Source: Diacronema lutheri (Eukaryota > Haptophyta > Pavlovophyceae > Pavlovales > Pavlovaceae). Taken from it: a stretch of 64,000 bases of DNA. Below, in pieces: positions 1,275-51,867 of this stretch. The position numbers and the translations under genes are program-made. Numbering within the stretch: the stretch's first letter is position 1; each line of letters opens with the position of its first letter. The stretch lies in assembly GCA_019448385.1 (NCBI GenBank), contig JAGTXO010000043.1:104501-168500 (forward strand), in the 5' to 3' direction. Under the pieces are notes generated by a model that did no database searches, was not told the DNA's origin, and saw nothing but the letters and a program-made list of their open reading frames with translations.

Positions 1275-2832
1275 AAGGCGGCGACGGCATCGGCGGCGGC
1301 GTTCGGCTCCTCGGCGCCGCTCGACGAGACGCCGTCCACCTCCGGCCGAGGCGCGTCGGTTCGCGCGGCGCGCTGCTGCGGCGACGCGGATCGACTGTGC
1401 GGCTCGTAACCCTCGGCCAGTTTGGGCATGGCCACTGTCTGCGCGTGCGGCGTGGCGCGTGCCGCTGAGCCCAGCTCGACCGGCGCGGCCGTCTCGTCCT
1501 CGTGCGCCGACGGCCAGAGCGCGGAGCTGATCGACGCGTCACTTTGCCCCGAGCAGCGGCGCTCGCTGAGAGGAGTCACGTCGCCTGCCCACCCGCGCGA
1601 CGCATCCGCGCGCGGGCTCGCGCTCGACGGCCGCGAGGTGCCCAGTCGGGCACCGGCGGGACGCGGCGAGCGCGGCGCAGAGCTCCCGGGCGACACGGTC
1701 CCAACCAACGCGTTCTCGGCCGGGCCTGGGCGGCCACGACGGGGCGAGTGGCTCGCGAGGTGCCACGTGGCGGGGATGGGCGGCCCCACGCGCGACTCGC
1801 CGCCCACCGCCTCCGCCTCGCCGAGCTGCAGCCGCCCGCCCGGCGACAGCGCGCCCCGAAGCGCGAGTGGCTCGCCGCCACCGCCGCGCCCGTCCGCGCC
1901 GCCGCGGCCTGCGCTGCCGCCCGCGCGCGCGACGAGGCGCGCAAAGCTGAGCGTGGCCTCCGGCGACGTGACGCTGGAGGGCATCGGCGACGCCTCGGGG
2001 GAGAGAGCGGCGAGGAAGAGCGCCTGCATCCCGGGGGAAGGGGAAGGGGAGGGGAGGGGGGGGGGGGGGAGAGAGAGAGAGCACGCGCTGCTTCGTGAAA
2101 GGCTGATGGGGGGGGGGGGGGGGGGGGAGAGAGCACGCGCTGCTTCGTGAAAGGCTGATGGGGGGGGGGGGGGGGGGGGGGGGAGAGAGCACGCGCTGCT
2201 TCGTGAAAGGCTGATTGGGGGGGGGGGGGGGGGGGGGGGGGGAGAGAGCACGCGCTGCTTCGTGAAAGGCTGATTGGGGGGGGGGGGGGGGGGGGGGGGG
2301 GGAGAGAGCACGCGCTGCTTCGTGAAAGGCTGATGGGGGGGGGGGGGGGGGAGAGAGAGAGAGCACGCGCTGCTTCGTGAAAGGCTGATTGGGGGGGGGG
2401 GGGGGGGGGGGGGGGAGAGAGAGCACGCGCTGCTTCGTGAAAGGCTGATGGGGGGGGGGGGGGGGGGGAGAGAGCACGCGCTGCTTCGTGAAAGGCTGAT
2501 GGGGGGGGGGGGGGGGGAGAGAGAGAGAGAGCACGCGCTGCTTCGTGAAAGGCTGATTGGGGGGGGGGGGGGGGGGGGGGGGGAGAGAGAGCACGCGCTG
2601 CTTCGTGAAAGGCTGATTGGGGGGGGGGGGGGGGGGGGGGGGGAGAGAGCACGCGCTGCTTCGTGAAAGGCTGATTGGGGGGGGGGGGGGGGAGAGAGAG
2701 CACGCGCTGCTTCGTGAAAGGCTGATGAGGGGGGGGGGGGGGGGGGGGGGGGGAGAGAGCACGCGCTGCTTCGTGAAAGGCTGATGGGGGGGGGGGGGGG
2801 GGAGAGAGCACGCGCTGCTTCGTGAAAGGCTG

Positions 2833-2867
<35 letters not shown>

Positions 2868-3335
2868 GAGAGCACGCGCTGCTTCGTGAAAGGCTGATGA
2901 GGGGGGGGGGGGGGAGAGAGAGCACGCGCTGCTTCGTGAAAGGCTGATGGGGGGGGGGGGGGGGGGGAGAGAGAGAGCACGCGCTGCTTCGTGAAAGGCT
3001 GATGGGGGGGGGGGGGGGGGGGGGGGGGAGAGAGAGCACGCGCTGCTTCGTGAAAGGCTGATGGGGGGGGGGGGGGGGGGAGAGAGCACGCGCTGCTTCG
3101 TGAAAGGCTGATGGGGGGGGGGGGGGGGGGGGGGGGGGAGAGAGAGAGCACGCGCTGCTTCGTGAAAGGCTGATTGGGGGGGGGGGGGGAGAGAGCACGC
3201 GCTGCTTCGTGAAAGGCTGATGGGGGGGGGGGGGGGGGGGGGGGAGAGAGAGCACGCGCTGCTTCGTGAAAGGCTGATTGGGGGGGGGGGGGGGGGGGGG
3301 GGGGGAGAGAGCACGCGCTGCTTCGTGAAAGGCTG

Positions 3336-3369
<34 letters not shown>

Positions 3370-6300
3370 GAGAGCACGCGCTGCTTCGTGAAAGGCTGAT
3401 GGGGGGGGGGGGGGGGAGAGAGAGCACGCGCTGCTTCGTGAAAGGCTGATGGGGGGGGGGGGGGGGGGGAGAGAGAGAGAGCACGCGCTGCTTCGTGAAA
3501 GGCTGATGGGGGGGGGGGGGGGGGGGGGGGGAGAGAGAGAGAGCACGCGCTGCTTCGTGAAAGGCTGATGGGGGGGGGGGGGGAGAGAGAGAGAGCACGC
3601 GCTGCTTCGTGAAAGGCTGATGGGGGGGGGGGGGGGGGATGCCCACAAAGCTGCGCACCTCCCTCGACACGCGGCGCGACAGGTCGGGCTTGAAAATGGG
3701 GTTTGACGTGTGGCCTGCAGAGCCAGCGCTCAAGCGCCTCGACCCGATTCCGCCCGCGCTCGCGCCTGCCGCCGTCGGCGAGCCCAGCGCGTCGGAGAGT
3801 GTAAGAGCACCGGGCCGGACACCGGACAATGCCCAGGGCGAGCCGACCAGCGCGCCGTCAACGCCAGTGCCTGTCGGGGAGCGGGCGGTAGCGGCGGCCG
3901 ACGCCTCCATCGCCGAGCGACGCGAGCCGGGCGTGCTCTCGCGCGCGGCGGCCGCCATTCGCGCGGCAAGGTATTGAGCGGCCTAGGGGGAAGGAGAGCG
4001 CCCACCCCCGCGGCGCCCAGGGCAACGCGTGCGCGCGCGCAAGGGTCGAACGCGCGCCGGTCGGTTGGCGGCGAATGGTGGCGAGCGGTAAGCGACATAT
4101 GTGCGCGCGCGCGCTGGCGGCGTGCGGCGGCGGCCGCCACCGCCGGCCTTCGCGCGGCAAGTGGCGCACGCTGCCCCTCGCCACCAACCGTGGCTGCCAA
4201 CTGGGGCAAGTGGGGCAAGTGGCGCACGCTGCCCCTCGCCACCAACCGTGGCTGCCAACTGGGGCAAGTGGGGCGAGTGGGGCGAGTGGCGCACGCTGCC
4301 CCTCGCCACCAACCGTGGCTGCCAACTGGGGCAAGTGGGGCGAGTGGCGCACGCTGCCCCTCGCCACCAACCGTGGCTGCCAACTGGGGCAAGTGGGGCA
4401 AGTGGCGCACGCTGCGCCTCGCCACCAACCGTGGCTGCCAACTGGGGCAACTGGGCCAACTGGGGCAAGTGGCGCACGCTGCCCCTCGCCACCAACCGTG
4501 GCTGCCAACTGGGGCAAGTGGGGCAAGTGGGGCGAGTGGCGCATGCTGCCCCTCGCCACCAACCGTGGCTGCCAACTGGGGCAACTGGGGCGAGTGGCGC
4601 ACGCTGCGGGCACGTGGGGCAACTGAGGCAACTGGGGCCGCAACCCGCATGCACACGCGGGCGCACGCCGCGCGCACCTTGCGCTGCGCCCACGACGCGT
4701 TGCGGCAGTCGAGCGGGAGGAGGAGCGGCACGAGCGATCGCGAGACGCCCTCGACCGTTGTCCAGCCGCTCTCCGCGAGCAGCAGTCCGTGCAGCGCGAG
4801 CTGCGCAACGAGCTGCGAAGCGTCCGCCGACGCATACGTGCCAAGCGGCAGCGAGGCACTCACGTCGTTCATCAGCAGCTCGTCGTACAGGAAGGCCTGC
4901 GGCAGCAGCCCGCGCCCCCTCCGCCTGCCCGTCGCCGCCGTGCGGAGCGCGCGCGCCGCCAGATCGACGGCGAGCGCGAGCGCGTTGGTCGCGCCCAGCG
5001 CGGCGAGGACCTGCGGCAGGGCGGCGAGGCGGGCGCAGCAGCGGCGGCCGCCAAGCTGAGCGCGCGCGCGCGCGCGCGAGCAATGGCCGCCTCGCGTCGC
5101 GGCCGTCCGCTGCGCGAGGGGCGCGCTCTTTGGCCACCCTTCCGCTGCGGATCGCGGCCGCGAGGCCAGAGCGGCCGCACCCGTTTCGTGCGTCCCCCCG
5201 CGGAGTGGGCGCACCCGTTTTGTGCGGCCGGCCGGCCGCGCGACGTCGCGCGCGCGGTCGCATCGGACGCAAGCGCGGTCGCCCACTCCGCGGGGGGACG
5301 CACGAAACGGGTGCGCCCACTGCGCGGGGGGGCGCACGAAACGGGTGCGCCCACTGCGCGGGGGGACGCACGAAACGGGTGCGCCCACTCCGCGGGGGGA
5401 CGCACGAAACGGGTGCGCCCACTGCGCGGGGGGACGCACGAAACGGGTGCGCCCACTCCGCGGGGGGACGCACGAAACGGGTGCGCCCACTCCGCGGGGG
5501 AACGCACGAAACGGGTGCGCCCACTCCGCGGGGGGACGCACGCGCGGTCGCGCACCTGCGCCCACTCCGCGGGGTCGCTTAGCCGCAGCCCCTCGCTGTG
5601 CACGCGCCAGACGGCGCGCAGCTCCGTGTCGGTCATCGACGGGTCGTTGAGGCGCGCGAGCAGGGCGGCGACGATCGCGAGCTCCCGCGCCGTGTCGTCT
5701 GGATCCGAGTCGCGATCGGACTGCAGCAGTGTCGCGGCGGCCAGTGAGACGGGTGGCGGATCGTCTTGCCGCGGCGGCGCGGCGCGCGCGTCGGACGGCA
5801 TTCGCTCTGAGCCGGTGGCCGCGCCGCCGGCCACGGCCGCGAGCGTGCGCTCGGACAGCTCGGGCGTGCCGCGCACTGGCAGCGCGGAGAAGCTCACCGC
5901 ATCGCCCGCGCCAGCGCCGCATGGGAAGTCTGCACCGGCGGCGCGCTCTGCGACGGGCTGCTGCGCGGCGTGCAGCAGCGTGTCGACGTGCGCCGCGCGC
6001 GCGGTGTCGCCTCGTGTGCCCGTGTGGACCGACCCGCCCGCTTCGAGCGCCATGGCGGCCGAAGCGTCGCCGTGCGCGTGCCCAGAGCCAGCAGCTTGCG
6101 GTGGCGAGCCTGGCGCGAGCAGCGCGAGGCGCGGACAGTGCGACGGCTGGTCGACACCGGCCGAGCCCGCGGGCAGCGCGTCGCCGCACGCCTCCGCCCC
6201 CGTCGCGCCGACCGAGAGCCAAGCGGGCGGCGGCTGGCGCAGAGGCTCGTGTGCCGTCGGCACGAGCGGACGGGCGCCGTCCGCTGCGCTCGCCGTGGCG

Positions 6301-18100: not shown

Positions 18101-21100
18101 GCGTGCACGCCGTGCACGCGCGCCGCTTCTCCGCGGCCGGCGGCGGCGCAAGCTCTCGCTCGAGTTTGGCTGCCGCCGCAGTTTGCTCGCCCGCCGGCTG
18201 CGCGCCGGACGCCGCCGCAGGGCTGGCGAGCTCGGCGTGCGCCGGCGCCGGCGCGAGCTGGTCGCCGTGTGCGGCGAGCTGGCCGCCGTCGCCGTGCTCC
18301 GCCTACGGCTTCGCGCCGCCCGCTGCGCCCACGCCGCGCGCCGCGCCATGCCGCGTCGCGACTGGCGCGGACGTGGGCGATGAGGGCGGCGACGAGGCGT
18401 CGGCAGGCGCGGCGCTCTCGCGCGCGCTCGCGCCGCTCGTCGCCGAGCTGCAGCGCCTCACGGCGTCGCCGCCCGCGTTCGCGCACACGAGCAGCGCGGC
18501 GCTCGACGAAGGCAGACGGGCGCGCGGCTCGCCGCTCTCGCCGCCGCGCGCCGCGCCGGCGGCGAGCAGCCCTGCTCTGCGCACGCGCCTCGCCGCGGAC
18601 GAGCGCGAGCCGCCGACGGCAGACAGGTCGACGCGCGCCTCGCCGCCGGCGATGCAGCGGCCCGACACCGATGACGCCGCCACGTCGCCCGTCGCGCTGC
18701 ACGCGCCGCGCTGGGCGGGCGCGCAGCCTCGGCTGCTCGAGGATGCGGCGACCGATGCGCGCTCGCCCGGCGGCGTGCACGCAGCGACCGATGCGCGCAC
18801 GCCCGGGCACAACGCGGCGACCGATGCGCGCACGCCCGGGCACAACGCGGCGACCGATGCGCGCTCGCCCGGCGGCGTGCACGCGGCGACCGATGCGCGC
18901 ACGCCCGGGCACAACGCGGCGACCGATGCGCGCACGCCCGGGCACAACGCGGCGACCGATGCGCGCTCGCCCAGCGGCGTGCACGCGGCGACCGATGCGC
19001 GCTCGCCCGGGCACAACGCGGCGACCGATGCGCGCTCGCCCGGGCACAACGCGGCGACCGATGCGCGCTCGCCCAGCGGCGTGCACGCGGCGACCAATGC
19101 GCGCTCGCCCGGGCACAACGCGGCGACCGATGCGCGCTCGCCCGGGCACAACGCGGCGACCGATGCGCGCTCGCCCAGCGGCGTGCACGCGGCGACCGAT
19201 GCGCGCTCGCCCGGGCACAACGCGGCGACCGATGCGCGCTCGCCCGGGCACAACGCGGCGACCGATGCGCGCTCGCCCAGCGGCGTGCACGCGGCGACCG
19301 ATGCGCGCTCGCCCGGGCACAACGCGGCGACCGATGCGCGCTCGCCCGGGCACAACGCGGCGACCGATGCGCGCTCGCCCAGCGGCGTGCACGCGGCGAC
19401 CGATGCGCGCTCGCCCGGCGGCGTGCACGCGGCGACCGATGCGCGCACGCCCGGGCACAACGCGGCGACCGATGCGCGCACGCCCGGGCACAACGCGGCG
19501 ACCGATGCGCGCTCGCCCAGCGGCGTGCACGCGGCGACCGATGCGCGCTCGCCCGGGCACAACGCGGCGACCGATGCGCGCTCGCCCGGGCACAACGCGG
19601 CGACCGATGCGCGCTCGCCCAGCGGCGTGCACGCGGCGACCGATGCGCGCTCGCCCGGGCACAACGCGGCGACCGATGCGCGCACGTCCGGGCTGCACGC
19701 CTCCCACGGCGCCATTTCGCCCGCATTTGTCGAGGCGGCAACCTCACCGCTCAACGCGAGCGTGTCGCTCGACCATCGCGCGCGCGCTGAGGCCGTCGAC
19801 GCGTTTGAACGCTTGCGCGCGCGGCGGCAGCCGGCCCCGACGAGCCCATGGGCCACGGGCTCGATGGCGCGCTTGGCAGCGCTCAGCCCCGGTGGCACGG
19901 CGAGCCCCGCCTCCACCGCGAGCCCAGGCTCGCCGAGCCTGCGCGCCAATTCGTGCGCGCGCGCGACGGACGGGGCGCGCGCGTGGTGCGGCGGAGCGCG
20001 CGCGCCGCTTGGCGGCTCACAGCTCTCGCCGCCACCGCTGCTCGGGCTCGCGGCGCGCGCGCTGGACGGCGCGCCGCACGTAGCTGCGGGCGCGCTCGCC
20101 GCCGCAGAGCCAGGGCCGCGCGAGAGGGCGTGCGACGACGTGTGCGCACAGCCTGCGCACGGTGCGGGCGGCGGCCTTGGCGGCGGTCTGACGCCTGCGG
20201 CGAGCGCAGTCCTCGAGGGCCTCGCCGAACGAGGCCTTGCGATCTCGGCGGGCGTGATGACACGCGCGGCGCGCGGCGCGCATTCACCATCGAGCGGCGC
20301 GCGCGCGGGCTGCATGCAGCATGGCGACGGCCATATGAAAGGCTGCGCCGGCAGCCGTGCAGAGCGGCCCGCATCGGCCGGCGCGCTGCGCGACGCGCCC
20401 GTTGTCGCCCTCGTCTCGCAGGAGGCGGGCGTCGGCGCGCTGGGCTGGCGAGCGTGCGCGCCGAGCGCACAACCTGGCGGCGGCTCGCCCACCGCCGAGC
20501 GGCCGTCACCATCGTGCGCAGCCGTGCGCATGCAGTCGCCCGTGCGCGCGCGGTGCAGCGCGGCCGGCGGCGTTGCCTCCTGCGGCGCTGCGTGCCCTCA
20601 CGGGGGCGCGAGCAGTGAACCGTCGAGCGACGGCGGGCCGAGCAGCCGCGGCGCGCGGCGCACGCCGCCGACGCCAGCGGCGCGCGACGAGCGCGCCGCG
20701 CCGCCCGCAGCGCACCGGGCGCGCGAGCTCGCGGGCGAATTCAGCGCGCACGGCGCGACGGGTGCACGCGCGCTCCATGCCTCACCGCCCCCAGCACGCG
20801 CGTCCGACCTCGTCACGCGGCCTTGGCTTTTGCGCGAGCTGTGCGAGCGCTACTTGCATGAGCACGCGCCGCCACCATCGCCGCGCGCCGACACGCGCGC
20901 CGGCGCGCCGGGCGGTGCGCGCGCGGCTACGGGAAGGCGCGCGGCGCGTGCGCTCCCGATCGATGGCGCGCGCGACGGCGACGACGACGCGACGGGCACG
21001 TCGAGCGAGTCCGATGCTGCGTGGGAGGCGGGCGAGGGCGCACGTGCGGGCGACGCCAGCGCCGAGTCGCATCGGCTCGGCCCGCGCAGCCATGCTGACG

Positions 21101-43748: not shown

Positions 43749-46700
43749 TTAGGCCGCGCTGCGAGATGTGCCGCCGCTGCTCACAGCGCGCGAACCCTCG
43801 CCCTGCTCCTCGCACTCGCTCTCCTCCTCATCCTCACCCTCGCGCCGCTCGGCAGAGCCAACGTCTAGACGAGCGCGCGCGGGGCTCGCAACAAGAGCTG
43901 AGCCGTTGGCCTCGGGACGTGCAGCGCACAGGGGGGCAGCCGGCGCGCTCGCGCTCCCCCGCGACGGGACGCTTCCAACTGCGACGGTGCGCGGCGGTGC
44001 GCTGCGCATGCGCGTCGGAGCGTCGGCGAGCGCGTGCGCGAGGCTGGCGGACGCGTGGCGCAGGTGCGGCGGGTTATGCAAGACGTCCATGCAGAAGGCA
44101 GCTGCGAGGCCGGTAAGGATCGCCTGAAAGGTGCGCGCTACGTGGCTTGCCAGCACGTACCTTCGCCCAGCGCGAGGCAGAGGGCGCACGTTGCATCGAC
44201 GTGAGCCCTTTGCGCGCGCGAGGCGCCCGGCGGCGCGGGCAAACGAGCACGCACACGCACACGCACGATACGCGCGCGCGCGCGCAAGCAGGGCGCGAGG
44301 CGGGGGCGGAGGCGCGCGCGGGCGCGGACGGAGCCGCAGCGCACGCACGAGAGGCAAAATGCCCACGCCAGTGGCACGCACAGCGTCTCGGCGGGCGCGG
44401 TCAGATCGGCCTCGCTGGGCGGGAGGAGCGAGAGGGCGAGGGCCGTCGCGCCTCCGCTCAGCATCGCGGCGCTGAGCGTCGTGCTGCGTTGCGCGGCGCG
44501 GGGAAGAGGGGGGCAGCAGGCGTGGAGAGTGTCAAGCGGGAGGGGAAGAAGAAGGAGGGGGGGGGGGGGGGGGGGGCAGCAGGCGTGGAGAGTGTCAAGC
44601 GGGAGGGGAAGAAGAAGGAGGGGGGGGGGGGGGAAGAGGGGCGCAGCAGGCGTGGAGAGTGTCAAGCGGGAGGGGAAGAAGAAGGGGTGGGGGGGGGGGG
44701 GGGGGGCGCAGCAGGCGTGCAGAGTGTCAAGCGGGAGGGGAAGAAGAAGGAGGGGGGGGGGGGGGGGGAAGAGGGGCGCAGCAGGCGTGGAGAGTGTCAA
44801 GCGGGAGGGGAAGAAGAAGGGGTGGGGGGGGGGGGGGGGGGGGGGGCGCAGCAGGCGTGGAGAGTGTCAAGCGATAGGGAAAAAAGGAGGGGGGGGGGGG
44901 GGGGCAGCCATGCGCACGCGCTTTGCCCCCCCCCCCCCCCCCCCCCCCCTCCCCCCCCCATCCTCGGCGTCACAGCTGCGCGGCGCGCACAAGGTGAGCC
45001 CGGCTTGCGCGGCCAGCACGACGCGCCAGCAGCTCGCGAGACCCAAACGTGGCCGATGCGCGAGCGACACATCCGCGCGCAAAGCCATGCCCAACGAGCA
45101 CTGCTCCGCCCATGCGCGCCGAGCGGCGGGCGCGAGGTCGAGACCGAGCGCGAGCACGTGCGCCAACGCGGGCGCGCCGAGCGCGGGCAGGTGGCCCGGC
45201 GGGGCGCAGCGTGGTCCGCGCGGCCGCCCCTTGCGCGGCGATCCGTCGCGTGGCGTCGCGTCGCTCGCCGCCTGGCGGCGAGGCCGCGCAGCCGCGCGCA
45301 GCGCGAGCACGGCGCGTGCGGGCCAGAGCGGAGCGCGCAGGAGCGCAGCGAAGAGCAGCGAGCCCGCGTGGTAGCGCAGCGCGAGAGCGAGGCACGCGAG
45401 AGCGGACGGCGGCGAGCGCGAGTGCGCGGCGGTCTCGCGGAGCGCGGCAGCGAGCGCGGCTTTGCGCGGCGTGCGCGCGACGTCGGGCGAGTGCGCATGG
45501 CCGTCGTCGCTGTCGCTCGGGCTGTACGCGGCGGCGCGCACCTCGTCCCACGTTGGCGCGGCCAGCGGCTCGACGTCGAAGGGCCGGGGCAGCCGTTCCG
45601 CAACCGCCGGGCGCATGCCGTCGGCGGTGTGCGCGCGCTCGGCCGCGCGCTCGGCCGCGCGCGCGGCGGCTGCTGCGCGCAAGGCGACCACGCCGCCGGG
45701 CCCGGCGTGGAAGAAGCGGAGCATCGTCGCCGAGGCCGCGGCCATCTGCGTGGCGGCCGAGAGCGCGCCGAGCAGCACCGCGCCAAGGATTCCATGCGCG
45801 CACAGCAGGCCGTGGGCGACTGACGCTCGCCGGGCGAGCATCGGGTAGCCGCGAAGCGACAGCTCGACGACGCCCGCCGAGGCGAGCAGCGCGGCGACGT
45901 AGAGCCACCACGCGCACAACGCGCACGCACACAGCGCGCTCGCGCACGGCAGCAGCAGCAGCGCGGGCGACTCGCCCAGAGCGCGCGCGAGCTCGAGCGC
46001 CGCGAGGCGCGCGCGCTCGCTCAGCTGCGCGCGCGGGCGGCGCGCCGCGCGCGGCGAGGGCGCGCGCGCCGCATGACGCGCACTGGGCTGCGGCGTGATG
46101 GCCGGCGGCGCACCGCCACCGCGCGCCATGCGCGTGGCGGCCGCCGCCCCGCCGAGCGCGAGCGCGCCGCCCGCGGCGACCGTCACCCACGCCGCCGCGC
46201 GCAGCGCGGCTGCGCCCGGACGCTCGCCAAGCGCGGCCGCACGCAGCAGCAGCGCGGCCGCCGTGCACGCGCATGCACAGAGCGCGCACAGCATCGCGCC
46301 GCAGAGCGCGGCCCCTGGCGCGCGCGCGAATGCGAGCGCAAGCGCAGCACCGAGCAGCATAGCGCCGCCCACCGATGAGCCGATGACGGTCGAGCTGACG
46401 CGGTTGAGGAGCAGCCTGCCGAAAGCCGCACGGACAACGCCGTGCGCGCTCGGCGCGAGCGCGGCGCGCAGCTCGTCGAGGCCCGCTTCGGTCGGCAACC
46501 ATGACGGCGCCGGCTCGTCGCGCGCCGCGCCGCGCAGCATCGCGCGGTATGCGCCGGCGAGCGCGGCGGCTGTCTCGTCGGCGTGGCCGGCTGGCGCGCA
46601 GTAGCCTCGGCCATCGGGCACGGTCGGGTAGGCGGGGAAGCAGCAGCGGCCGAGAAGCGCCGCGCGCTCGTCGTCGTCGCTGCGCGCGCATTCGTCTGTG

Positions 46701-47324
46701 CACAGCAGCGCGCGGCCGGCGAAGCCGTCGGCCGCCGTCGCGGGGTTTGGACACGTGCGCACGCAGATGCCCAGGCCATGCTGCGGGATGGCAAAGAAGA
46801 CGAGCGGCATGCCGCGGCGGTCGGCGCCGCGCGGCCCGCGCGCAGCCGCGGCGGCCGCGGCGGCCGAGCGGCTGGCCCCGGCGATCAGCGCGCCGTCGAG
46901 CCGACGCCCGCCGTTGTCCGCCCCGCAGACGTCGAGGCCGTAGTCGACACCGGAGACGAGCCGCGTGGGCCGGCCGAGCGCGGCCGCCGCCGTCGTACAG
47001 AGCGTGAGCAGGGCGAGGAGCGCCACGAGGAGCAGCACGCACGGCGCGTCGGTGCATGCTCGACGGCGCGCCGTCGAGCTCGCACGCGCCGCGCGCGCGG
47101 CGAGCTCGAGTGCGGGCGACCAGGGCACGCCGCTCGCGGCCGCAAACCGACGCGCCACCGCGGGCGGCAGCGATGCGCGCGCGCTTATCACGCTATCGCG
47201 CGCGGCACTGAACGGGCCGTGCGCAAGGAGAAGGCGCACCTCCTCTGCAACGACGGCCGCCGCCGCCGCCTCCGCGTGCGGCGCACGCGCGTGTGGCTCC
47301 TTGGGCTCGTCGCCATCGTCGTCG

Positions 47325-47356
<32 letters not shown>

Positions 47357-50300
47357 CTTGTCCCCTTGCCCGCATGCACCTCGGCCGTCGCCTCCGCCTT
47401 CGCCGTCGCCCTCACGCGCCCCCGGTGCATACCGCAAGCGGAAACCGAAGCGGCGCGCGGCGGCGCGCGCAGCCGACGTGCGCTCCGCGCGCGCCCACGG
47501 CTCGTCGCCGCCCTTCGCCGACGCGCGCTCGCCGTCGACCCACGCACGCGCAAGAAAGTCGCGCAGCGCAGCCGCGTTCAGCGCGCGCGCAGGCACGTCG
47601 GGCACCGCTGCGGCGAGGAGGAACTTTGCGCAGACGGCCGCGTGCTCGAGGGCGACGAGGAGCAGCAGCTTGTCCGCGTCGCCCAACTGCACGAGCGAGC
47701 CGAGCGCGTCCGCGGTGAAGATCATGATGCCCAGGTTGGTGAAGATCGCCATGTAGCCCACAACGTCGAACGCGTGCACCCACACGCCCACGCCCGCGGC
47801 CGCGCGCGCGAATGGGCGCTGGCGGAGGAAGAGGGTCTTGACACCGTCTGCGCGCAGGTCGACGAGGTTGTTGGCGATGACAAAGAGAGGCGTCAGCGGG
47901 AACGCGCTGGCGAAGAGCGTCGCCGCCGCAAAGTCGAGCATCAGCTCGTTGTACTCGGCGAACAGCTCGGCGGCGGGCGCGAGCAGCAGCTCGGCGGCTG
48001 CGCGTGGAGGCCGCGGCTCGCCGGCGGCGCGGGCGCGCGCCTCGAGCGTGCGCGCGCGCGCGGCCTGCCAGTGTGGGAGCAGCGAGTTGGACAGCTGCGA
48101 GAGCGTGGCGTTGAGCAGCACGAGCACGATGACCTGCGCGCGCAGCTCGTCCATGCACGTGGCGGACGGAAGGCCGTCCCATCCGCGGCACTGCTCTGTA
48201 AAGTCCAAGCCGAAGAGGCGCGCTCGGCGCCCTTTAGCGAAGGCGATGTACAGCGAGGCGAAGAAGCGGTTGGTGAACGAGAAGACGCCAAGCTTGACGA
48301 TCAGCGAGCTGCGGTGCGCCTCGTGCGTGCGGTGGTTCTCCCACGCCGTGAGCGAGCGCGCCGCGCGCTTGTACGCAAAGCCCATCGCCTCCGCAAACGC
48401 CGCGTTCGCCGCGGCCGCCGCGAAGGTGCCGCCCGTGCCGGCGAGCGCGCGCGCCGCGACGCGCAGCACGAGCAGCGCGAGCGAACCGATGACCGTCACG
48501 CCGAGGAGGCACGAGATGAGGAGCGCTGAGCAGGCCATCCGACGGCGCGGCACGTGCGGCGGGACCATCTCGATGAGCGGCGCCTCGGCGTCGTCGGGCA
48601 GCATGTCGGAAGGGACGGGCACAAAGTCGCCCGAGCGCGCGTGCAGCCCGTGCGACATCTGCCCGGAGAACTCGGCGCGCACGCCCTCTGCGCGCAGCCG
48701 GTGCGCCACGTCCCACTCCGCGGAGAGCTCCGCCTGCCGCCGTTTCCACGCCTCGATGAACGCAGTCGCCCACACGACCAGCACGAGCGAATACGCGACG
48801 GTGAACCACGCGAAAGGCGGCCGCTGTGACAGCGCAAGGCCGCGCTCGAGCGCGAAGAGCACGCCACCGAGCGCCGCGACCGGCCACAGCTGCGATACGC
48901 GCGCGGCAAAGCGGCGTCAATGGCGGTCGCGCGGCGGGCGTCAATGGCGCGGCGGGCGTCAATGGCGCGAGCGGGCGAGCGCGCGCGAGCGCGCACACGG
49001 CGCACGCGCGCACGCGGGTGGCACGCGCGCACCGCTCGGGAGAGCGTGTGCACGAATGCAAAGTAAAAGGCGTGCTCGCTCCCCAGGTAGCCCTCGAGCT
49101 GGCGCAGCGGCATCGGCTCGAGGCCGAGGTGTGAGCTGCCAGACTGCAAGCGCGCCTCGAGATCGGCGCGCTCTGCGCGGTCGTGCAGCGCGAAGACAGC
49201 CTCGAGGCCCGCGCGCTTGCAGCACTCGCCCACGTCGATGCCCGCGCCGCCGAGCGCGAACGGCGCTGCGAGCAGCCGCTCGAGCAGCAGCGCGCGCTCG
49301 GCGGACGAGAAGTCGAACGCGCGCGCGCCGCCTCCGCTGCCGTCGCCTTCGTCCGCTACGCCTGCCGCCCCCACGTCAGCTGCGCGCGACTCGAAGCGCG
49401 ACGCCTGCGCCGCGCGAAAGCGAGCCCAGCCGCCGCCGAACGCGCGCCGCAGCCGCAGCCGCACACCGAGCCGCTCAGCTGCGGCCATCAGCCGCTCACG
49501 CGTGGCGCCAACGACAATGAGCACGACGCGCTCGCCCGCCGAGTCCGTCGCGTCCACCTTGCCCACGCGCAGGCCAATGGCGCGAAGCCGGCGGACGAGC
49601 GCGGCGCGGTCGGGCGCGCGCGGCTGCACGCCGTCCGCTGCTGCCGCTGCTGCCTGCGCCGCCGCCGCCGCGGCGAAGTGCGAGCCCGGCCCAAACGATG
49701 GCGGCGACGCGCTGCTCGCCTCGCGACCGACGGCCGCGCCCGCCGCGGCGCCTTCGTCAGCGGACGGCGGCCGCGCTGCCGCGTGCGGCGAAGGCGCGAG
49801 CACGAGCGGCGGCGTGCGCAAAATGGGCAGCCGGCGCGCGGCGGCAAGCCGCGCTGCTCGCGCGCCGCCCGCCGCGGCATGCGCCCGGCCGCGCGGCGCG
49901 CGCTCGTCGCCGTCGTCGCCGCTCGCGGCGGCGCGCGCGTCCGCGCCACCGCCCGGCGTGCCCGGCGCGTCATTCTCGTCGCCGTCGCTCTCGGCCGCGC
50001 GCGTCTGCGCGGCGTAGACGAGGACGAGGGCGAATTTGGCCCCCGTACCGGGGCTGCCCGCCTCTGCGCCGGCGGCACCGCCGTCGCCATTGGCGGCCGC
50101 GCCGTCGCCGCGCGCAGCGCCGGTAGCCGCGGCGGCAGCGGCGTCCGTCACGTCCACGCCCTCGCCCAAAGCGGCCGCGCCCTTGGCGCGGCCCTCGGCA
50201 CCGGCCGCCGCGGCGGCTTTGGCGCGCGCGCCCGGCACGGCTGCGGCCTCCTCCGCCCCGCGCTTGGGCCGGAGCGCGTCCGCGTCCTCCGGAGCGGCTT

Positions 50301-51867
50301 TCTCCGGAGCGCTGGACTGCGCCGCTGGGCGGCGCCGCTCGGCGCTGCGCTCGTCTTCCGCGCGCCCGTCCGTCCCCTCCCGCCGCCGGTGCGCGCGCGG
50401 CTGCGTGTGCGAACCACAGCTCGCCGCACGGCCGTCGCGCGGACGCGTCGCTCGCTGCGCGAGGGCGGACGGCAGCTGCACGTTGACGGGCTCTCTCGTG
50501 CGACTGCTGCCGTCGTTGCCGTTGCCGTCGCCATCGTCGCCATCGCACGTTGCGCGCGCGTCGCCGACCCGGTCACTCGGCTGCGCGCGCGCGCGCAGCT
50601 CGTCGGGCAGGCGGCGCGGCAGCGGCAGCGGCGCACGCGTGGCCGGCGTCGGGGCCGCGCGCGACGGCGGCGGCAACAGCGGCTGCGGCGTGCGCTGCTG
50701 AGCTGCGCAGACGCACGTCTCGCCGTCGCGCAGCGCGGCATCGACCGCCGCACAGTCCAACGCGCGGTGTGCCTGCCACCACGGCTGCGCGCCGCTTGCG
50801 CCCGCCGCCGCCTCGGCTTGAGCAGTACGCGACAGCCCCTCCGAGTCGCCCACGGCGGGCGCCGCGCGGTGGGCATACGCCGGCGCACAGCCACGCGGCT
50901 CCGTCCACTGCGCGCCACGCGGCGCCCACCGCTCCGGCTCCGCGCGCGCGTGCGGCCGCCCGGCCGCCAGCAGCGCGGGGTGCGGCAGCGCAGCGGGCGC
51001 GCGCGCGCGCGCCGCGGCCTGCGCCGGCTGGTCGGCCATGTCGAGCTGTTGCGCGAAGCAAGCGTCGCGCTGCTCATACGCAAGACGACGGCCATCCACG
51101 ACGCCATACGTGCGCGCGCAGCACGGGGCGTGCGCCTCGATGCGCGCCTCGTCGGCCGCGAGCGCGCACGACACGCAGCGAACGCTTGGCGGTGCGCGCT
51201 CTGCGCGCGCATCTCCCGCCTCGCGCGCCAGCGCCTCTGCGCCCGCGCTGAGCAGAGTTGAGCGCAAACACATCGCCGCGACCTCGAGCTCGCGCAGCCC
51301 AAAGTCGCGCGCGCCGCGCGGTGGCGTTGACGCGGAGGTCGGCGCAGAGCCGATAAGACCTTCAAGCCGTGGTCGCACGCCTGAGCCTTCGCCGTCCGCG
51401 CAGCGCGCGGCAACGCCATCAGGAATGGCGCGCCGAGCCCTGGTGTCATGCGGTGCCGCAACGTAGCCTGCGCCTCCGCATTGGCGCCGCAGCGGCAGCG
51501 CCGGCGGAGCGCCCGCGCGCGCGGCGCGCTCGTCGGCGACGGCAGGCGCGCGCGCGCGCCCTCGGCGCACGTCGGCGCCGCGCGCGACGAGCGCGTCGAT
51601 CACATCGACATGAAGCGCCTCGAGGGCAATGTGTATGGCCGTCCGCCCCGATCCGTCGAGCACGTGCACGTCCGCGCCCTCGTCCAGCAGCCGAAGCGCG
51701 ATGGCCGCGTGCCCGCTCGCGCTCGCAGCGTGCAGCGCAGTGCGGAAGCCGTCCGAGCCCGCGGCAGCGTTGGGATTGGCGCCCGCCGCCAAGAGGTATT
51801 CAACGGTGCGCAGGTCGCCGCGCGCCGCGGCCGCAACCAGGGCGCTGCCAGGCGGCGTTGCCCGCAT
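43749..51867 (-). CDS. Ankyrin - anoctamin (TMEM16) - choline-transporter-like (SLC44) fusion protein, four exons
   Basis: The exons are 51867-49033, 48889-44991, 44483-44349 and 44145-43749, giving 2,421 aa. Donors are GTGCGC, GTGCGC and GTGCGT, and phases agree at each join. Residues about 10-105 hold three ankyrin repeats (GDLRTVEYLLAAGANPN, TALHAASASGH, TAIHIALEALH). A long disordered region follows. An anoctamin N-domain is next (LRAIGLRVGKVD, YLGSEHAFYFAFVHTLSR). The channel/scramblase core follows: WKRRQAELS, LGVFSFTNRFFASLYIAF, EYNELMLDF, FPLTPLFVIANNLVDLRADG and RPFARAAAGVGVWVHAF. Acidic calcium-site positions in these helices are largely kept (E..NE and NNLVDLRAD). After an acidic loop an SLC44 domain begins with TDAPCVLLLVALLAL, VDYGLDVCG, GICVRTCPNP and RYHAGSLLFAALL, ending with an acidic tail. 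Anoctamins scramble lipid or conduct chloride; SLC44 proteins carry choline or related headgroups. Intron 2 holds a minisatellite. Confidence 0.75.
44506..44907 (-). repeat. Six-copy minisatellite in intron 2 of the ankyrin-anoctamin-SLC44 gene
   Basis: Units of about 64-70 bp contain + strand GCAGCAGGCGTGGAGAGTGT then CAAGCGGGAGGGGAAGAAGA and a variable G run. One unit has CGTGCAG instead of CGTGGAG. The last unit differs (AAGCGATAGGGAAAAAAGG). A C run (44927-44959) lies beside it. The array is unrelated in sequence to the three arrays in the coiled-coil gene but has the same design: a constant core plus a variable G run. Confidence 0.9.

Follow-up and report, generated by a model that had tools for sequence, protein, structure and literature searches.

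Does a single gene of the haptophyte Diacronema lutheri join ankyrin repeats, a TMEM16 (anoctamin) domain and an SLC44 choline transporter-like (CTL) domain in one polypeptide, and if it does, how might such a protein work? The question is raised by a gene on the minus strand of a 64,000-nucleotide (nt) stretch of contig JAGTXO010000043.1, hereafter the window, for which an earlier note made from the sequence alone had proposed this arrangement. Here we report that the gene encodes one polypeptide and belongs to an Ank-TMEM16-SLC44(CTL) family of three genes, for which one fusion with later duplications is the simplest explanation. We hold this conclusion with high confidence. The assembly of D. 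lutheri NIVA-4/92, as described in PMC8379373, comprises 43.50 Mb in 103 contigs, the longest of 3.042 Mb, with a GC content of 73.25%; the genome that we searched for PF04547 (Anoctamin) and PF04515 (Choline_transpo) amounted to 43.49 Mb in 103 contigs, with a longest contig of 3,042,068 bases.

The gene occupies positions 51867-43749 of the window (coordinates are given in the direction of the gene) and was spliced by hand, with its two paralogues C75 and C5 as a guide to the choice of splice sites, into a single frame of 2426 residues running from ATG to stop. Its four exons (51867-49033, 48889-44991, 44483-44349 and 44160-43749) are separated by introns of 143, 507 and 188 nt, all with GT-AG borders. 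Exon 1 encodes the ankyrin-repeat region (residues 8-103; 51846-51559), which is also present in the paralogues, then a low-complexity spacer (residues 104-611; 51558-50035) and the TMEM16 N-domain. The N-domain and membrane part of TMEM16 together span residues 612-1400 (50034-47525) and are split by intron 1 (49032-48890), which was placed likewise in C5 and is absent from C75. Since exon 1 is 2835 nt long, the junction 49033/48889 is in phase 0; it reads HTLSRA followed directly by LWPVAALGG, and its counterpart in C75, where there is no intron, is HRLNRALWLPVALGV. Exon 2, with 3899 nt in one open frame, carries the TMEM16 membrane part, a linker (residues 1401-1552; 47524-47069) and the SLC44 part to about helix 9. 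The linker is of low complexity, with an acidic run and without Met, and its end resembles that of C75. The SLC44/CTL module (residues 1553-2323; 47068-44061) continues across intron 2 (44990-44484) and intron 3 (44348-44161, phase 2), two small exons taking it beyond the 3.9-kb exon and through the helix-10 region, and is followed by a low-complexity C-terminal tail (44060-43752). Helix numbers were transferred from CTL1 by alignment, and a hydropathy scan served as a rough guide only. Most of intron 2 consists of a minisatellite (44500-44904) with 6.0 copies of a 70-nt unit and a long poly-C/G tract.

Pfam recognises Ank_2 in the spliced window protein at residues 11-101 (E 8.5e-14, 52.3 bits against a cut-off of 27.3) and Anoctamin at residues 926-1381 (E 9.5e-84, 282.3 bits against a cut-off of 28), the latter domain being covered nearly end to end (model positions 3-453 of 460). 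In a search of the PDB the TMEM16 part matches ANO10, ANO6, ANO1, nhTMEM16 and afTMEM16. The anoctamin dimerisation domain PF16178 was not found at E <= 0.01 in the window, C75 or C5 proteins, and occurs in one (C9b) of the nine other TMEM16 open frames of the genome. The SLC44/CTL module displays the helix-1 CTD motif, the Cys-rich loop (GICVRTCPNP and GRCCFPAY), RYHAGS and the helix-10 motif.

The genome-wide search revealed two further loci, C75 and C5, with PF04547 and PF04515 in the same open frame, and the colinear order of ankyrin, TMEM16 and SLC44 is common to these and the window. The C75 gene has two exons and encodes 1957 residues, with ankyrin, TMEM16 and SLC44 to helix 9 all inside its first exon of 5330 nt; Ank_2 (E 2.7e-18, 66.7 bits), Anoctamin (E 3.5e-92, 310.1 bits) and Choline_transpo (E 7.1e-13, 48.9 bits) are all above cut-off in its open frame. 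The same is true of the C5 protein, hand-spliced from four exons into 2095 residues (Ank_2 E 2.8e-8, 34.6 bits; Anoctamin E 4.8e-89, 299.8 bits; Choline_transpo E 8.3e-7, 29.0 bits, positions 35-325 of 326). The TMEM16 part encoded by exon 2 of the window gene shares 54-55% identity with C75 and C5, compared with 29-39% with the matching stretches of other loci. Measured against the SLC44 module of C75, identity is 37% for the window module and 39% for that of C5, and LGICVRxCPxP, GRCCFPAY and the helix-10 region are retained in all three copies. A common position and phase can be assigned to intron 3 in all three, and to intron 1 in two of them (window and C5). The C5 locus also has, at 5720-5586, what seems to be an intron of 135 nt; it separates the Ca2+-ligand motif EYCE from LWLDF, leaves the frame open and is absent from the window and C75 copies.

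With these results the structural claims of the earlier note can be judged together. Its coordinates and its phase-0 junction are reproduced by hand splicing, which yields the 2426-residue frame, and by C75, which is intronless at that point; exon 48889-44991, described as free of stops from anoctamin to SLC44, is open throughout and contains the signatures quoted; and the assignment of all three modules to a single gene is borne out by the same architecture in C75 and C5.

Phylogenetic analysis sets the fused copies apart. In the TMEM16 tree the branch parting the three from all other rows is supported by 99.9 in the Shimodaira-Hasegawa-like approximate likelihood-ratio test (SH-aLRT) and 99 in the bootstrap, and in the SLC44 tree the corresponding branch has 100/100 support; both trees are unrooted and do not settle the order of the duplications. 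Of the 13 merged rows, the TMEM16 tree holds 11: C91 and C13, with fewer than 230 filled columns, are excluded, and four further loci yielded no row. Its ANO6 row is a fragment of 243 residues and its C85 row a very long branch. The SLC44 tree holds eight rows and does not include the partial or split loci C4b, C89b, C48 and C71. Beyond the three fusions the genome contains nine more TMEM16 loci above the Pfam cut-off and eight more SLC44 loci. Scanned with Pfam, the main open frames of those nine TMEM16 loci had no match to ankyrin or to Choline_transpo, and among the 20 loci searched with profiles of the fused copies, ankyrin was found only in C75 and C5, and SLC44 beyond these two only in stand-alone SLC44 loci. 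The best matches of the fused SLC44 module among the loci searched are the stand-alone CTLs C4 and C75b, which share 57% identity with each other and, over helices 5-10, 18-23% with the fused copies.

One alternative to a fusion is that an Ank-TMEM16 gene and a neighbouring SLC44 gene happen to lie in one open frame of GC-rich DNA. An open linker is by itself weak evidence, because the DNA is ∼75% GC: when the linkers were mononucleotide-shuffled with 30 nt on each side (2000 shuffles each), fractions of 0.096 (window), 0.207 (C75) and 0.087 (C5) stayed open. Separate genes would also be compatible with the one Met that C75 and C5 each have within the linker, and with the occurrence of TMEM16 in frame with unrelated domains elsewhere in the genome. 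At locus C85 (1185-5339) a frame of 1385 residues contains a Wntless-like membrane domain (PF06664, 50.7 bits, cut-off 28.3) and then the start of an anoctamin domain (76.4 bits), and at locus C13 (4764-6644) one open frame holds both a TIG domain (43.4 bits, cut-off 20.9) and the final part of an anoctamin domain. Each is seen at one locus, where the two domains may be truly fused or may belong to neighbours in a common frame; a lone open frame is therefore no proof of fusion, and it is the evidence from three paralogues that matters. C75 and C5 repeat the three modules of the window copy in identical order and frame, which makes chance unlikely, and there is not one in-frame stop between TMEM16 and SLC44 at any of the three loci. 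Moreover, the window copy lacks Met throughout the 222 residues ahead of the SLC44 CTD motif (the last Met, 1334, lies inside TMEM16 and the CTD motif is at 1557), and the fused copies are parted from the other rows in both trees. For the final 45 linker residues, the window-C75 and C75-C5 comparisons each beat all shuffles (0 of 500 as good). Taken together, we regard two adjoining genes as very improbable. An assembly artefact joining unrelated sequences, in favour of which we found nothing, has a negligible likelihood, as PacBio coverage of the published assembly was ∼315x according to PMC8379373 and the same structure is found on three contigs at ∼54% TMEM16 identity.

Several observations nevertheless count against a three-module fusion in the window or reduce the force of the evidence for it. 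Choline_transpo scores 26.2 bits (E 5.7e-6) on the spliced window protein, just below the cut-off of 26.9 bits, and 22.7 bits on exon 2 alone, and in the genome-wide PF04515 search the window's own SLC44 part was too weak to appear; of the two Pfam models named in the earlier note, PF04547 is thus above its cut-off in the window and PF04515 narrowly below, both being above in C75 and C5. The window SLC44 sequence alone had no PDB match at E <= 1, a profile of the three fused SLC44 modules reached CTL1 in the PDB with an E value no better than 0.45, and an AlphaFold2 model of the window SLC44 part (692 residues, single sequence) was of low confidence, with a predicted local distance difference test score (pLDDT) of 43.8 and a predicted template modelling score (pTM) of 0.30. 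Counting in favour of the CTL assignment, the same profile aligned over most of its length with the two stand-alone CTLs C4 and C75b at an HHalign probability of 99.6% (E 1.5e-23, 580 columns). The intron positions are shared partly by construction, given that splice sites were set with the paralogues in view, and the linker ends of the window and C5 are not significantly similar (392 of 500 shuffles as good). Nor is there significant similarity between the window spacer and that of C5 (139 of 500 shuffles score as high); the former measures 508 residues between ankyrin and TMEM16, has a putative exon structure and could hide introns. Finally, the architecture is known from the genomic sequence of one species.

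Turning to function, we compared the TMEM16 domains at the Ca2+ ligands, which we take to be E624, E667, E670, E699 and D703 of TMEM16F. The positions E667, E670, E/D699 and D703 are retained in all three fused copies, position 699 being D in the window and C5. The acid E624 of transmembrane helix 6 is E in C75 and D in C5, and Ca2+ gating of these two copies is likely; in the window copy it is N, a residue that speaks against gating, which is accordingly predicted with less certainty there.

The best overall explanation, which we favour with a modest degree of confidence, is a fused gene family in which a Ca2+-gated TMEM16 would be combined with a lipid-handling, non-transporting CTL. How the parts would cooperate is more tentative, and the following mechanism should be read as a possibility. 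The termini of TMEM16 proteins and the N-terminus of CTL proteins are cytosolic in the known families, and the topology thus fits a fusion. The protein would be a Ca2+-gated TMEM16 unit acting as a lipid scramblase and/or an ion pathway; if it forms a dimer like known TMEM16s, as we presume, it would bear two CTL modules on flexible linkers, with ∼20 helices per chain by count from the known families. As a partner that binds lipids or sterols, each CTL module would supply, order or sense lipid beside the TMEM16 groove, a role that seems likelier than that of a choline carrier, and the ankyrin repeats would probably tether the protein to a cytosolic partner or a membrane site. A lipid role of the CTL module is plausible because lipid- or sterol-like densities have been described in a groove of CTL1 and PNS1 (PMC13160678), and because phospho- and sphingolipids are altered in Arabidopsis ctl1 mutants, as reported in PMC5746207; the authors of the latter ascribe these changes to choline transport, which tells against a non-transporting module.

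The proposed central pocket of CTL1 provides a further comparison. Of the nine residues lining this pocket in human CTL1, taken from PMC13160678 and aligned here at low identity, the window keeps one (Q404), C75 one (E591, plus D537E) and C5 one (E591), and the stand-alone CTLs C4, C75b, C81 and C15 keep five, four, two and two, respectively. At the D537 and E591 positions the window has V and Q, C5 has L at the former, and C75 is acidic at both, whereas K491 is lost in all three fused copies and kept in three of the four stand-alone CTLs. The loss is genuine, yet the fusions are not alone in it, since C81 and C15 also keep only two of the nine. CTL1 and PNS1 themselves have just one pocket tyrosine in common, according to PMC13160678. 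As the pocket is variable within the family, it supplies no firm family criterion and only a moderate argument against transport.

It is also conceivable, if improbable, that the SLC44 half has degenerated into a passenger, or serves as a membrane anchor, with no activity in its own right. The SLC44 modules are less conserved than TMEM16 (32-36% identity among themselves over helices 5-10, against 54-55%) and have longer branches (0.59-0.93 against 0.38-0.43), and pocket residues have been lost. This weaker conservation weighs against a lipid-handling partner to the extent that it fits a decaying passenger as well as a retuned partner. However, the frame has remained open and every copy preserves LGICVRxCPxP, GRCCFPAY and the helix-10 region, which is beyond what decay would leave.

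The earlier note had instead read the gene as coupling lipid scrambling to choline or ethanolamine transport by the SLC44 half. Its single polypeptide stands; the coupling is weakly supported, with the pocket residues replaced and in view of PMC13160678, and we consider it decidedly unlikely. Transport would agree with the long-standing reports of SLC44 proteins as choline/ethanolamine carriers, as reviewed in that paper, with the production by Pavlova species of the choline-type betaine lipid diacylglyceryl carboxyhydroxymethylcholine (DGCC), as stated in PMC8379373, and with the acidic residues of C75 at the D537 and E591 positions. It is harder to reconcile with the replacements in the window and C5, with the loss of K491 throughout, and with a 2026 study in which CTL1, PNS1 and CherI reportedly mediated no choline or ethanolamine uptake in oocytes (PMC13160678). 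The same authors found the CTL fold difficult to square with transport and proposed a non-transport role, leaving transport under other conditions possible.

More generally, the fusion of a Ca2+-gated TMEM16 with a lipid-handling CTL might serve as a “Rosetta stone”, in which case CTL/SLC44 proteins would be lipid-handling partners of scramblases in general, and not choline carriers, with the partnership here made permanent and Ca2+-gated through TMEM16; we think this broad reading rather unlikely. Choline transport by CTL/SLC44 proteins is disputed and their structures hint at another role. A fusion to a well-studied scramblase/channel family, kept in three diverged paralogues, offers an independent clue to what that role may be, and makes it testable within one molecule.

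Elsewhere in the window, a G-rich minisatellite with 28 copies of a 59-nt unit lies at 2051-3638 and is the probable cause of the extreme GC skew (0.54) measured over 2001-4000. A 33/102-nt tandem array at 18745-19693 (9.2 copies of the 102-nt unit, 97% matches) may be coding, as both periods are multiples of three. An Rfam scan of the window returned no families. Scanning viral contigs with the C75 protein gave one locus, a phage portal-like open reading frame as judged by eye, where the match was low-complexity and acidic and was rejected.

No description of an Ank-TMEM16-SLC44 fusion was found among the matches listed from the open-access literature, searched mainly by titles and the starts of abstracts, in agreement with the earlier note, which knew of none. 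Compared with the TMEM16 family, including ANO6/TMEM16F, ANO10/TMEM16K, nhTMEM16 and afTMEM16, the fused proteins are alike in their near-complete Anoctamin domain and four acidic Ca2+ ligands, and differ by the N-terminal ankyrin repeats and the C-terminal CTL module. With the SLC44/CTL family, as represented by human CTL1, yeast PNS1 and Arabidopsis CherI/CTL1, they share the CTD motif, the Cys-rich loop, RYHxG[ST] and the helix-10 motif, and can be aligned through helix 10; unlike these proteins, the fused module sits behind a TMEM16 domain and most of its putative pocket residues are replaced. The stand-alone CTLs C4 and C75b, although closest to the fused module among the loci searched, are separated from it by the low identity given above and by their five and four of nine pocket residues. 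Each of the three families is itself known, and it is their combination in one architecture that appears new.

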